Assembly: GCA_030431525.1 (NCBI GenBank)
Contig: JAUIJC010000039.1
Coordinates: 1 to 36,143 of the forward strand
Origin: Bacteroidia bacterium
Lineage (GTDB): Bacteria; Bacteroidota; Bacteroidia; Cytophagales; JAAEPT01
Reading direction: 5' to 3'
DNA: 36,143 bases
Below the pieces are notes generated by a model, which saw only the letters and a list, made by a program, of their open reading frames with translations, made no database searches and was not told the DNA's origin. Positions 11,688-16,574 of this stretch are shown here, one piece after another. Numbering within the stretch: position 1 is the first letter of the stretch; each line of letters begins with the position of its first letter. Made by a program: the position numbers and the translations under genes.

Positions 11688-12965
11688 TTAAAGCACCATC
11701 CCAGCAGCAACAGTCTCGTTGCTGAATGGATCAATCAAAATCACGGCGCCAGTAGCGCGGTTCTTTTTGTAAGCATCAGTGAAGATCGGCTTGGAAGTAC
11801 GGAGGCGAACACGTGCTACGTCGTTCAAACCTACGTTCAAGTCGTCCTCTTTTTTGTGCAAGGTGTTGATGTCCATTTTGTAGACAACCTCCTTGGCGAT
11901 AGCTTGAGCCTCCTGAGAGGTGTGGCGAACGATGTACTTGCCACGTGGCTGCAACGGTTTGTTGCTCATCCAAGTCACCATCAAATCAATATCCTGAGTG
12001 GAATTAGGCTGATTGTTTGGCTTGGCAATCATGTCACCACGGCTGATGTCGATTTCATCCTCGAGGGTAATGGTCACGGACATTGGAGGGAATGCTTCCT
12101 CCACAGGGCCGTCCATGGTTTCGATGGATTTGATCTTGCTGGAGAATCCAGAAGGAAGGACAACGATGTCGTCGCCTGGCTTGAATACGCCACCTTCTAC
12201 CATGCCAGCGAATCCACGGAAGTCGCGGTACTCGTCGTCAGTCTGAGGGCGGATCACGTACTGCACAGGGAAGCGTGCGTCCACGAAGTTGCGGTCAGAA
12301 GCAATCTGAACGTTTTCGAGGGTGTACATCAAGGTTGGGCCGTCATACCAAGTCATGTTCTCGGAGCGGTCAACTACGTTGTCGCCAAGAAGGGCAGAGA
12401 TTGGAATGAAACGGATGTCCGGAATATCCAACTTGGAGGAGAACTCCTTATAGTCAGCTTTGATTTTTTCGAACTGCTCTTCGCTCCAGTCAACCAAGTC
12501 CATTTTGTTGATACAAACCACCACGTGCTTGATGCCCAAAAGGTTGGCGATGAAGCTGTGACGCATGGTTTGCTCGATAACGCCGTGACGGGCGTCCACC
12601 AAAATGATGGCGAGGTTTGCCGTGGAAGCACCAGTCACCATGTTACGGGTGTACTGGATGTGTCCTGGAGTGTCAGCGATGATGAACTTACGCTTTGGCG
12701 TAGCGAAGTAGCGATAAGCCACGTCAATGGTGATACCTTGCTCACGCTCGGCTTTGAGGCCGTCCGTCAAAAGGGCGAGGTCAACTTTTTCAGCACCACG
12801 GTTTTTAGAGGTCTCTTCGATGGCCTCCAATTGGTCCTCAAAAATGGACTTTGAATCGTACAACAAACGTCCAATGAGGGTACTCTTTCCATCGTCCACG
12901 CTTCCTGCGGTAGTGAAGCGCAGGAGGTCCATGTCGAGGTATGCTTTATCTGTAACTTGTTCCAT
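11688..12965 (-). CDS. cysN: Sulfate adenylyltransferase subunit 1 (GTPase)
   Basis: 425 residues, the length of a CysN without a fused kinase. With CysD it makes adenosine-5'-phosphosulfate (APS) from sulfate and ATP, driven by GTP hydrolysis. EF-Tu-like G motifs are intact: GSVDDGKS (21-28), DTPGH (98-102) and NKMD (153-156), followed by two beta-barrel domains. It is last in the minus-strand operon cysC-cysD-cysN, 81 bases after cysD; that gap holds a heptamer repeat. A terminator follows. The long plus-strand frames over it are shadows. Confidence 0.97.
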   Translation of the reverse strand: MEQVTDKAYLDMDLLRFTTAGSVDDGKSTLIGRLLYDSKSIFEDQLEAIEETSKNRGAEKVDLALLTDGLKAEREQGITIDVAYRYFATPKRKFIIADTPGHIQYTRNMVTGASTANLAIILVDARHGVIEQTMRHSFIANLLGIKHVVVCINKMDLVDWSEEQFEKIKADYKEFSSKLDIPDIRFIPISALLGDNVVDRSENMTWYDGPTLMYTLENVQIASDRNFVDARFPVQYVIRPQTDDEYRDFRGFAGMVEGGVFKPGDDIVVLPSGFSSKIKSIETMDGPVEEAFPPMSVTITLEDEIDISRGDMIAKPNNQPNSTQDIDLMVTWMSNKPLQPRGKYIVRHTSQEAQAIAKEVVYKMDINTLHKKEDDLNVGLNDVARVRLRTSKPIFTDAYKKNRATGAVILIDPFSNETVAAGMVL

Positions 12966-13046: not shown

Positions 13047-13952
13047 TTAGAAGTAACCCTGCATTTTACGCTCCTCCATGGCGGCTTCGGAACGCTTGTC
13101 ATCGGTACGACCACCACGCTCTGTTACACGAGCAGCGGCAACTTCACCAATGATGTCATCCATGGTAGAGGCTGTAGATTCAACCACACCAGTACAGGTC
13201 ATGTCACCAACGGTACGGCAACGAACGATTTTCTCTTCCCATTTTTCGCCTTCGCGAAGGTTGATGTATGGGGATTTAGCCAAGAAGATGCCGTCACGAG
13301 CTACAACCTCACGCTTGTGAGTGAAGTAGATGTTTGGCAACTCGATGCCTTCCATCTTGATGTACTGCCACACGTCCATCTCCGTCCAGTTGGAGATTGG
13401 GAAGATGCGGAAGTGCTCGCCGATTTGCTTTTTGCCGTTGTAGAGGTTCCACAACTCAGGGCGCTGGTTTTTCGGGTCCCACTGGTTGAACTCGTCACGG
13501 TGAGAGAACATACGCTCTTTTGCACGAGCTTTTTCCTCGTCACGACGACCACCACCGAAAGCGGCGTCAACCTTGAAGTGCTCAAGGCTTTCAGTCAATG
13601 TGATGGACTGAAGGGCGTTACGGCTAGCGTTAGGGCCTTTTTCCTCAACAGCAGTACCGCGCTTAATGGAATCTTCTACCAACCCAACTTCCAGTTTGCA
13701 ACCATATTTTTCCACCAAAGCGTCGCGGAATTCAATGGTCTCTGGGAAGTTGTGACCAGTGTCAATATGAAGGAGAGTGAAAGGGATTTTGGCAGGCCAA
13801 AAAGCTTTGCGAGCCAAGTGAACCATTAAGATGGAGTCCTTTCCTCCAGAAAAAAGAAGATAAGGGCGCTCGAACTGGGCGGCCACCTCACGGAAAATGT
13901 GGATGGATTCGCTTTCAAGCTGTTTGAGGTGATTGAGGTTGTATGAGGTCAT
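13047..13952 (-). CDS. cysD: Sulfate adenylyltransferase subunit 2
   Basis: 301 residues, typical for CysD, the catalytic ATP sulfurylase subunit. The PP-loop SGGKDS is at residues 35-40 (LLFSGGKDSILMVHL); HIDTGHNFPETIEFRD and the Gly/Arg-rich AAFGGGRRDEEKARAKER are family landmarks. It lies 28 bases after cysC and before cysN on the same strand. The product APS is the CysC substrate. The overlapping plus-strand frame of 268 codons is a shadow. Confidence 0.97.
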   Translation of the reverse strand: MTSYNLNHLKQLESESIHIFREVAAQFERPYLLFSGGKDSILMVHLARKAFWPAKIPFTLLHIDTGHNFPETIEFRDALVEKYGCKLEVGLVEDSIKRGTAVEEKGPNASRNALQSITLTESLEHFKVDAAFGGGRRDEEKARAKERMFSHRDEFNQWDPKNQRPELWNLYNGKKQIGEHFRIFPISNWTEMDVWQYIKMEGIELPNIYFTHKREVVARDGIFLAKSPYINLREGEKWEEKIVRCRTVGDMTCTGVVESTASTMDDIIGEVAAARVTERGGRTDDKRSEAAMEERKMQGYF

Positions 13953-13980: not shown

Positions 13981-14577
13981 TTATTTCAAAGTGATTATTG
14001 GCAATACCGCGTCCAACAATTCCTGCTCGCTTTCTTCGAGTGATTGCTGGTCGGTACGGATTTCCTTGAAGGGATTTACTGGGGCTTCAAAAGGGGAGTC
14101 GAGGCCTGTGAAGTTTTTGATCTCGCCGTTCATCGCCTTTTTGTAGAGGCCTTTCACATCGCGCTGTGCGCAAACCTCGAAAGGAGCGTTGATGTACACC
14201 ACATGGAAATCATCTTCCCCGATAATTTCCTTGGCCATATCGCGGATTTCCTCGGTTGGGGAAATCAAGGAGCAGATGGTGACAATGCCACATTGAGCAA
14301 AAAGCTTGGACACCTCAGCGGCACGGCGGATATTCTCTAAGCGGTCTTCCTCAGAAAAGCCGAGGTTGTTGTTTACCCCAGTGCGGAGGTTGTCTCCGTC
14401 GAGCAATTGCGTCAAATGGCCCTTTTTGTGGAGCTCGTGCTCAAGGCCACGCGCCAAGGTACTCTTGCCTGAACCCGAAAGTCCAACCATCCAGATGACG
14501 GCCCCTTTTTGCTTGAGTAGCTTTTCGCGTTCCTCCCGCGGAAGAATGGTATCAAATATCGGATGTATGTTTTCCAT
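13981..14577 (-). CDS. cysC: Adenylylsulfate (APS) kinase
   Basis: 198 residues, stand-alone APS kinase producing PAPS. Walker A GLSGSGKS (32-39), the APS-binding region LLDGDNLRTGVNNNLGFSEEDR, and VYINAPFEVCAQRDVKGLYKKA match the family. It is the first gene of the minus-strand cys operon; the ATG at 14577 lies about 110 bases after a candidate -7 box. Because CysC and a PAP phosphatase are both here but no reductase is seen, PAPS may serve sulfation, assimilation, or both. Confidence 0.97.
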   Translation of the reverse strand: MENIHPIFDTILPREEREKLLKQKGAVIWMVGLSGSGKSTLARGLEHELHKKGHLTQLLDGDNLRTGVNNNLGFSEEDRLENIRRAAEVSKLFAQCGIVTICSLISPTEEIRDMAKEIIGEDDFHVVYINAPFEVCAQRDVKGLYKKAMNGEIKNFTGLDSPFEAPVNPFKEIRTDQQSLEESEQELLDAVLPIITLK

Positions 14578-14852: not shown

Positions 14853-16085
14853 ATGCAAGATTCAAATGCCAGAAGTTTTGCCAAGGGTGTGACATGGAGG
14901 GTAGTAGGGACTTTAGATACGCTGATGATCACATTTTTATGGACAGGTAGTCTTGTGGCAGGCGTTAGCGTGGCTGGTTCAGAAGTATTCACGAAGATAT
15001 TGTTGTTCTATCTCCATGAAAGGGGGTGGAACGGTATCCCTTGGGGTCGAAAGTCTTATGGTCCAACCAAATGGCGAAGCGTTACCAAGATGTTGAGTTG
15101 GAGGGCGCTGGGAACATTGGATACGATGTTGGTGGCTTATATCAACCTTCACTTTTTTGGAAAGGCCGGTAATGAAGGAGAAGAAGGGACCTTGGCCGCC
15201 AAGATTGGAGGCAGTGAATTGATTACAAAACCGATTTTATACTACTTTCACGAACGCGCTTGGGGCCATGTGAAATGGGGCCGAATCAAAGGTTCGGTGA
15301 ACCCAAGTATTTTGAACAAGGATATGTTAGATGCATTGAACATCGAGGATGTCAAGGAAATCGCTCGTAAGGCGGGAGCCAAAATCATGGACATCTATGA
15401 GAACGAGGACTTTGAGAAAACAGTCGATTTTAAGTCGGATGACTCTCCGCTGACTGTGGCCGACAAAGCTTCTCATGAAATCATCAACCACGATTTGGAA
15501 CTCTTGAACTTGGGGATTGCCATCCTTTCCGAGGAAGGCGCTGAGGTTCCTTATGAGACACGTTCCACTTGGAAAACGTTTTGGTGTGTGGATCCGTTGG
15601 ACGGCACCAAGGAGTTCATCAATAAGAATGGAGAGTTCACCGTCAATATCGCATTGATCCGTGAGGGCGAGCCTGTATTGGGTGTAGTTTACGCTCCAGC
15701 TATCAATACCATGTATTATGGTAAGAAAGGAGAGGGCGCCTTCATGCAGAAGGATGGTGAAGAGCCAGTGAAAATCAGTGTGAACCATAAGGACGCACAG
15801 CGTGTCGCAGTTCGCAGTAAGTCACATGCCAATCCTGCTGAGGAGGAAGTGTTGGAGCAATATGATGTGGTAGACACCATTTCTGTAGGTAGCTCCTTGA
15901 AGTTCTGCATGGTGGCTGAAGGCAAGGCAGACCTTTACTACCGTCATGGACCAACGATGGAGTGGGATACAGCTGCAGGTCAAGCAGTGGTTGAAGCTGC
16001 AGGTGGAAAGGTCTTGGATGGTGATACGGCTTTCCGTTATAATAAGGAGTCTTTGTTGAATGGAAGCTTCCTTTGCGTAGGCTGA
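14853..16085 (+). CDS. cysQ: Fusion of two DUF2061 domains with CysQ-type 3'(2'),5'-bisphosphate nucleotidase
   Basis: About 410 residues. Residues about 8-65 and 75-145 are two copies of a DUF2061 membrane domain, each with SW/TW-R-x-x-GTLDT near its start and a second half FTKILLFYLHERGW or ITKPILYYFHERAW ending in a WG motif. From about residue 160 follows an inositol-monophosphatase-fold CysQ: SEEG metal ligand, DPLDGTKEF catalytic loop and MEWDTAAGQAVVEAAGG. CysQ converts PAP to AMP. The fusion would tether it to the membrane through the DUF2061 segments. The frame opens with TTG at 14847; ATG at 14853 is preferred. It is divergent from cysC. From memory, DUF2061 genes occur beside cys genes in Bacteroidota, supporting a true functional link. 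Confidence 0.9.
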   Translation: MQDSNARSFAKGVTWRVVGTLDTLMITFLWTGSLVAGVSVAGSEVFTKILLFYLHERGWNGIPWGRKSYGPTKWRSVTKMLSWRALGTLDTMLVAYINLHFFGKAGNEGEEGTLAAKIGGSELITKPILYYFHERAWGHVKWGRIKGSVNPSILNKDMLDALNIEDVKEIARKAGAKIMDIYENEDFEKTVDFKSDDSPLTVADKASHEIINHDLELLNLGIAILSEEGAEVPYETRSTWKTFWCVDPLDGTKEFINKNGEFTVNIALIREGEPVLGVVYAPAINTMYYGKKGEGAFMQKDGEEPVKISVNHKDAQRVAVRSKSHANPAEEEVLEQYDVVDTISVGSSLKFCMVAEGKADLYYRHGPTMEWDTAAGQAVVEAAGGKVLDGDTAFRYNKESLLNGSFLCVG

Positions 16086-16160: not shown

Positions 16161-16574
16161 ATGTGCAGGGAAAACTTTCAGTTTGGCAAGAAATACTACA
16201 CACGGACTTGCGTCCAATGGCTAACAGAGGATAATGTTATGTATTCAGAATCCTTTGAGGGGGTGAAGGTGGATTTTGACGATGCTAAGGAAAATATGGC
16301 CTTACGGGAATGGATGAGGCAAGACCAAAAAGTGTGTGGGATTTTAACCTTTAGAATGTTGGGCACCACGCTTGATGCAAGGCGGCATTATGAAGAGGTG
16401 ATGTCCCGAGGAGGGTATTCGGCTCTGGCTATTGTGGTGACCAATCCTGTCACCAGAATGATAGCTAATTTTTCTGTAGGCTTTGTGAGACCTAAAGCGC
16501 CCGTTAAAGTTTTTGCCTCTATGGACGATGCCAAATGCTGGGTGGAAGGGTTACGAGAAAGAGGGGTGTTTTAA
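16161..16574 (+). CDS. Small STAS/SpoIIAA-like cytoplasmic protein
   Basis: 137 residues without signal or membrane segment. The pattern of strand and helix, with LREWMRQDQKVCGILTF (about residues 48-64), LDARRHYEEV, then ALAIVVTNPVTRMIANF and FASMDDAKCWVEGL at the end, resembles the small SpoIIAA/STAS-like proteins (DUF7793-like) common in Bacteroidota. They are thought to bind partners or small molecules; no activity is established. The ATG at 16161 is taken; a second ATG at residue 27 is less likely because the N-terminal strand fits the fold. It stands alone after a terminator. Confidence 0.6.
   Translation: MCRENFQFGKKYYTRTCVQWLTEDNVMYSESFEGVKVDFDDAKENMALREWMRQDQKVCGILTFRMLGTTLDARRHYEEVMSRGGYSALAIVVTNPVTRMIANFSVGFVRPKAPVKVFASMDDAKCWVEGLRERGVF

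Follow-up and report, generated by a model that had tools for sequence, protein, structure and literature searches.

Why a PAP phosphatase should begin with two copies of DUF2061, a membrane domain by family name, and what this arrangement says about the domain, is the question raised by one gene of a Cytophagales bacterium. The gene lies in the window, that is, the whole stretch of 36,143 nucleotides that was analysed (contig JAUIJC010000039.1, assembly GCA_030431525.1).

The fusion gene and its host

The fusion frame runs stop-free from ATG 14853 to the stop codon at 16083-16085. It had been described from the letters alone as two DUF2061 domains in frame with a PAP phosphatase, divergent from cysC-cysD-cysN, and this held: one frame of 410 residues was found, with Pfam and TIGR01331 matches above the cut-offs (Table 1). 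Residues 10-60 and about 78-137 correspond to DUF2061, and CysQ extends from residue 165 onward. In Pfam, DUF2061 was matched in two stretches at 108.1 bits (cut-off 23.1), and each domain by itself exceeded the gathering cut-off of PF09834 (67.2 and 51.8 vs 23.1 bits); the second carries a 10-residue insert in its turn. A stop codon or frameshift near 15300, which would split the fusion, is absent from the assembled sequence, and the same fused frame was found in a genome of another genus (G001). An alternative start, TTG 14847 (two additional residues), was set aside; ATG 14853 was kept because the fusion of G001 begins with the same MQDS. The fusion gene and cysC-cysD-cysN diverge from one common intergenic space. 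The next gene 3′ of the fusion (16161-16574, + strand) matches DUF7793 (52 bits; cut-off 26) and is weakly SpoIIAA-like.

Table 1. Positions of the fusion gene, its parts and neighbours in the window, and of related features at other loci.
Feature	Position	Strand	Remarks
DUF2061-DUF2061-CysQ fusion gene	14853..16085	+	single open frame, 410 aa; Pfam/NCBIfam
DUF2061 domain 1, helical hairpin	14880..15032	+	67.2 bits; AlphaFold2 helices at residues 5-31 and 34-61
DUF2061 domain 2, helical hairpin	15084..15263	+	51.8 bits; AlphaFold2 helices at residues 73-102 and 110-138
Linker between DUF2061 pair and CysQ	15264..15344	+	limits derived from domain matches
CysQ, 3'(2'),5'-bisphosphate nucleotidase domain	15345..16079	+	TIGR01331
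cysC, APS kinase, divergent neighbour	13981..14577	-	Pfam/NCBIfam
cysD, ATP sulfurylase small subunit	13047..13952	-	Pfam/NCBIfam
cysN, ATP sulfurylase large subunit	11688..12965	-	Pfam/NCBIfam
Fusion gene of G001	L047:5386-6594		
Viral kinase-like partner	L268:6003-6761, L276:473-1246, L352:7511-8287		about 255 aa

The CysQ domain is intact and is a predicted PAP phosphatase. It scored 286.3 bits with TIGR01331 (NCBIfam; equivalog cut-off 228.8) and 185.6 bits with Inositol_P (Pfam; cut-off 27); with the E. coli-type CysQ model NF008182 the fusion reached 249 bits, under that model's cut-off of 379. The motifs SEEG, DPLDGT and EWDTAA, which serve to bind metal in inositol monophosphatases, are intact and align with PDB entry 3b8b and with the CysQ part of 12 relatives. 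The closest solved structure is 3b8b itself, CysQ of Bacteroides thetaiotaomicron (42 % identical over the Foldseek alignment). Bacterial CysQ (TIGR01331; 3b8b) has the same whole catalytic domain and motifs as the fusion; 3b8b and the 79 other CysQ compared are without DUF2061, whereas the window CysQ has two such domains in front.

In the host genome, the fusion is the only CysQ above the TIGR01331 cut-off (a second match, at 87 bits, falls below it), and no DUF2061 matches were found other than those in the fusion. Besides cysD, the host has one PAPS_reduct-domain gene, the protein of which has CC and CxxC at positions presumably typical of iron-sulfur APS reductases, and one sulfotransferase frame above the cut-offs of two sulfotransferase families. 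Either the sulfotransferase or the reduction of PAPS could thus be the source of PAP in the host.

Distribution, gene neighbourhood and further fusions

The fusion of G001, a genome from the same family as the host, is 58 % identical to the window protein. Its frame has 408 residues and is likewise divergent from cysC-cysD-cysN; the linker motif WGRIKGxVNP is common to both proteins. A sequencing slip is unlikely because a second genus carries the same fusion at this level of identity. In the order sample, DUF2061 was detected in 93 of 390 genomes, with frames longer than 400 residues in G000 and G001 only and fusion to CysQ in two. A wide scan (one genome per species) with two CysQ heptapeptide patterns, which fusions with a diverged CysQ would escape, gave 434 pattern matches, 409 of which were confirmed. 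One fusion was found among the best 80 of the 409 confirmed CysQ loci, on a contig of 10,092 bases from a Cytophagales metagenome assembly (L166); judged by length and content, this contig is evidently that of G001 (L047), and the two were counted as one case. DUF2061 was not found in the flanks of the other 79 of the best 80 loci (50 of the 80 loci had at least 12 kb of sequence), and CysQ therefore does not need DUF2061. In the samples examined, fusion of DUF2061 with CysQ is rare and restricted to a single family. Among the same best 80, cysC or cysD lies near cysQ in 68 of the 79 non-fused loci and on the opposite strand in 55 of these 68; the divergent layout is therefore the usual one, and what is specific to the lineage is the fusion. 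G003 (locus L048) has an unfused counterpart, in which a DUF2061 gene of its own, with one domain, lies immediately 5′ of cysQ and cysC-cysD is divergent; the domain encoded there is not the closest relative of the window domains.

The neighbourhood of DUF2061 was surveyed in two samples. DUF2061 was found in 42 of 395 genomes of the phylum sample; one locus per positive genome, the window's own excluded, gave 41 loci, which served as the sole basis for the linkage rate. A CysH, CysC, CysD or CysQ gene is fused to DUF2061 or lies within 300 bp of it at 29 of the 41 (CysH 20, CysC 6, three of them fused, CysD 5, CysQ 2). No sulfate gene was found within 6 kb at 12 of the 41, three of which (L063, L085, L090) have less than 6 kb of sequence on one or both sides. 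The order-sample loci were taken from some of the 93 positive genomes, selected with a preference for unusual frame lengths; after L147 and L148 (weak Pfam matches, missed by the DUF2061 profile) had been left out, 38 remained, with a sulfate gene within 6 kb at 24 and none at 14. As a control, 12 GtrA loci (1.5-kb flanks) gave no sulfate-gene matches. The preliminary description had read the fusion as tying DUF2061 to the handling of PAP. The tie to sulfate metabolism stands (29 of 41 loci), but the tie to PAP does not (CysQ at 2 and CysH at 20 of the 41). In the survey of fusions and neighbours that it proposed, sulfate-activation genes recur, and fusions to CysC and CysN were also found. 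The common factor around DUF2061 is sulfate activation, not PAP.

The commonest operon has the order Rrf2-DUF2061-cysH-cysD-cysN-sulfite reductase-siroheme enzyme, and neither CysQ nor CysC was recognised in it. Across 87 loci (both samples and relatives), a CysH cluster was found at 33, CysH with Rrf2 at 28, and CysH with Rrf2 and sulfite reductase at 21, one representative each of the Rrf2, CysH and sulfite reductase assignments being confirmed with Pfam; an Rrf2-type regulator lies near DUF2061 at 29. A second locus type has the order cysQ-DUF2061x2-cysC-cysD-cysN (L066, L079), with other order or content at L073, L130 and L131. At the last two, a 584-residue frame (L130:4452-6203, L131:8215-9966) lies directly 5′ of cysQ-DUF2061x2-cysC; Pfam gave no match for the copy at L130.

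DUF2061 is fused to three enzymes of one pathway (CysQ, CysC and CysN), in three phyla. It stands at the N-terminus of CysC at eight Bacteroidota loci (L124 and L092 confirmed with Pfam) and on a Gemmatirosa plasmid (Gemmatimonadota), where a cysQ frame lies immediately 5′. On three Microvirga plasmids, of which two are from one strain, it follows CysN at the C-terminus (L248 above the CysN cut-offs). These proteins, like that of the window, join DUF2061 to an enzyme of the same pathway; partner enzyme, DUF2061 copy number and attachment end differ.

The plasmid collection contained 15 DUF2061 records, of which nine regions were inspected, including one of five from Mesorhizobium; four of the nine lacked a gene table and were searched with sequence queries. 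In a nodulation gene cluster on the Mesorhizobium huakuii plasmid (L246), DUF2061 is flanked by a sulfotransferase and cysD-cysN, with nodB, nodC and nodI alongside, and may belong to Nod factor sulfation. On a Bradyrhizobium and three halophile plasmids, no sulfate-activation genes were found within 6 kb of DUF2061; two of the halophile copies have sulfur genes of rhodanese or TusA-like type in their vicinity. Since these copies are located elsewhere, DUF2061 is not solely a sulfate protein. In the archaeal DUF2061 of the halophile plasmids (L249, L250, L265), YER replaces HER, and the helix Asp and Glu are missing.

DUF2061 is present in bacteria, archaea and viral contigs. With the whole fusion as query, no relative was detected among viral contigs. 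At least 120 viral stretches (L266-L385) carry the DUF2061 motif, and 119 of the 120 listed match the profile (L384 does not), an agreement for which the motif pattern itself selects. An APS-kinase-like frame was found in 58 of the 120 listed stretches, within 110 bp of DUF2061 in 43 and within 700 bp in 57; random placement within the available stretch (2000 trials) gave means of 10.6 and 19.2 and maxima of 21 and 30, respectively. The kinase is upstream of DUF2061 on the same strand in 57 of the 58 listed pairs. Its N-terminal part is similar to the 90 N-terminal residues of APS kinase (about 58-63 bits with PF01583, above the Pfam cut-off); the protein falls below the NCBI apsK cut-off, its C-terminal part is weakly like nucleotidyltransferases, and in PHROGs it corresponds to PHROG 10255, annotated only "kinase". 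Judged by these matches, the viral partner need not be a true APS kinase. Three DUF2061 proteins had no match in PHROGs. The sole record from the phage collection, MW202753.1 (L386), has a DUF2061-like stretch (45 % identity, tblastn) about 800 bp past an M15 peptidase gene and 1.4 kb past a holin gene; hypothetical proteins are annotated there on both strands.

Structure model and conserved residues of DUF2061

The full fusion was modelled with AlphaFold2 from 32 aligned sequences (mean pLDDT 87.8) as four helices of about 27-30 residues followed by a separate CysQ, with a low-confidence linker at residues 145-154; the DUF2061 pair modelled alone gave a pLDDT of 88.2. Comparison of the DUF2061 model with the PDB by using Foldseek gave no match at E ≤0.001, and the best VIA-align Z score of 5.8 is inside the range of common helical arrangements. 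In BFVD, the only matches at E ≤0.001 were two phage DUF2061 proteins (4e-6, 7e-5), so the window model agrees with other models of the DUF2061 family. The DUF2061 profile gave five matches against PDB sequences, which were taken as chance (best E 0.41). Homology to GtrA (PF04138), suggested by the repeated two-helix pattern, was rejected (hhalign 0.2 %, E 0.27; 21 DUF2061 vs 12 GtrA sequences), and Pfam searches with four DUF2061 proteins, extended to E 10, gave no GtrA match.

A membrane location is implied by the family name, and we infer it for the window pair; the hydropathy of DUF2061 is moderate and overlaps that of soluble control enzymes. The 19-residue mean reached at least 1.6, by aligned helix, in 20 of 107 domains; the helices of the window gave 1.04/1.36 in domain 1 and 1.12/0.71 in domain 2, and a free scan of the protein had peaks of 1.67 and 1.65 in domain 1 and of 1.12 in domain 2. 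Values of at least 1.6 were obtained for 36 of 78 stand-alone DUF2061 proteins vs 5 of 13 CysC and 19 of 23 sulfite reductases as controls.

The pattern K..WR..GT.DT...E..TK..LYY.HER.W is conserved in stand-alone DUF2061 and in the window. Stand-alone proteins (PF09834) have one or two such domains; the window pair differs from them in its fusion to an enzyme and in the insert in the turn of domain 2. Among 99 stand-alone Bacteroidota domains, K11, R16, E56 and W59 are each present in 97 (the other two are gapped), H55 in 96, R57 in 89, K48 in 88, E44 in 86 and D22 in 82. Fused copies examined retain K11, W15, R16, K48, E56, R57 and W59, which argues against a mere anchor and suggests that DUF2061 may do more than hold its partner in place. 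D22, the Asp of helix 1, was lost from four of nine CysC fusions, two of three CysN fusions and both domains of G001. In the latter protein (L047), which is without this conserved Asp, one His is also replaced by Tyr, and its DUF2061 pair looks as if it were relaxing toward a plain anchor.

Possible roles of the DUF2061 pair

The reading that we favour, with a probability of about 0.5, is that two DUF2061 hairpins at the inner membrane hold CysQ, and that DUF2061 serves sulfate-activation enzymes in general as a membrane-side partner that brings them together. What is observed is one frame joining the domains, a CysQ with its motifs intact, a linkage that recurs and fusions of three kinds. The N-terminal hairpins would sit at the inner membrane and would keep a normal CysQ on the cytoplasmic side, so that the tethered enzyme could clear PAP, possibly also PAPS, where the activation and use of sulfate take place; that CysQ may be bound to the membrane is plausible, though the DUF2061 helices are only moderately hydrophobic. 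Depending on the lineage, the module would be a separate small protein of the cys operon or would be fused to CysQ, CysC or CysN, and in the host's family the joining of the pair to cysQ would place PAP removal at the site of sulfate activation and use. CysQ, CysC and CysN act on cytoplasmic nucleotides. Since DUF2061 carries such partners at its N-terminal end in some proteins and at its C-terminal end in others, the two ends of each hairpin are predicted to lie on the cytoplasmic side. Co-localisation with the other enzymes would be part of this picture, and DUF2061 may have an active role beyond holding them. Against the favoured reading stand the moderate hydropathy, the 79 of 80 CysQ loci without DUF2061, the DUF2061 loci without a sulfate gene (12 of 41 and 14 of 38), the halophile and Bradyrhizobium plasmid copies and the loss of Asp in G001.

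The animal PAP phosphatase gPAPP (BPNT2) has a membrane anchor, which is not known to be related to DUF2061. If the model of a tethered CysQ holds, the two would work alike, in that a PAP phosphatase is kept in place; unlike the window fusion, gPAPP is lumenal and eukaryotic, and it is likened here by description, not by sequence. The part of the source drawn on places it in the Golgi, the compartment of sulfotransferases (PMC7216085).

A more far-reaching version, which we consider rather unlikely, makes DUF2061 an active component of sulfate activation: the paired hairpin would bind or pass the sulfate or adenylyl-sulfate anion and would recruit CysN, CysC or CysQ into a membrane assembly; phages carry the domain beside an APS-kinase-like enzyme.

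Also improbable, though worth weighing, is a transport role, in which paired DUF2061 hairpins would form a small channel or permease, carry sulfate or a similar anion across the membrane and pass it on to the sulfate-activating enzyme that is fused to them or encoded next to them; in the window, cysQ would have become the fusion partner as the pathway gene closest by. The conserved K11, R16, K48, H55 and R57 could bind an anion, and no known permease was recognised in the core of the Rrf2-DUF2061-cysH-cysD-cysN operon (representatives checked with Pfam). An analogy, by gene context only, is provided by the fpr2-cysIXHDNYZ cluster of C. glutamicum, which includes the membrane protein CysZ, a putative sulfate transporter; growth tests are called strong evidence for this function in the part of the source drawn on (PMC1266029). 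CysZ resembles DUF2061 in its place within a cysH-cysD-cysN cluster and, if DUF2061 is membrane-bound as predicted, in being a membrane protein; it has 309 residues, unlike the 52-residue DUF2061 domain. Against transport speak the small size of a domain with two helices, the loss of the conserved Asp from several fused copies and the lack of a fold match in its favour. Moreover, sulfate import is not missing, since at least four SulP matches were found in the host and at least three in G001 (336 of the 390 order genomes have such matches, with at most a few candidates scored per genome). These matches rule out the lack of a sulfate permease as the sole reason for DUF2061.

We regard it as doubtful that DUF2061 is a passive anchor or chance passenger, that is, a harmless lineage-specific fusion with no part in sulfate handling. 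The restriction of the CysQ fusion to one family in the samples and the G001 domains without residues common elsewhere fit this account; fusions to three pathway enzymes in three phyla together with tight linkage would be hard to obtain by chance, and the core residues are conserved within the fused copies. Least probable is a DUF2061 that senses a sulfur metabolite, the redox state or iron and tunes the fused or neighbouring enzyme: Rrf2-type regulators near DUF2061 (29 of 87 loci, one representative checked), DUF2061 genes in excerpts of iron-related regulation tables of Caulobacter and Shewanella (PMC3751524, PMC12442407) and the impaired polymyxin B resistance at elevated calcium reported, in the part seen, for mutation of PA3237 (PMC12632274) speak for it, but the domain alignment has no conserved cysteine, the Pfam matches of the fusion and of the DUF2061 proteins checked include no sensory domain, and the neighbouring regulator already fits such a role.

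CysQ and DUF2061 are known families. Neither the fusion of the two nor the recurrence of three enzymes as partners was found in print in the literature searched; domain databases may list such fusions. Where DUF2061 is named in the excerpts consulted (two iron-related regulation tables, a mutant screen and a mutation table), no function is assigned to it; no mention of COG3205 was found in the literature searched, nor of DUF2061 in that on nodP/nodQ.

The fusions to three enzymes and the tight operon linkage make the role of DUF2061 a concrete, testable question: whether there is a membrane-bound assembly for sulfate activation, and whether a domain of 52 residues only holds enzymes or also acts on the anion. 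For such tests the fusion protein of the window is well suited, as it is apparently the only clear CysQ of the cell and its two parts are separable.
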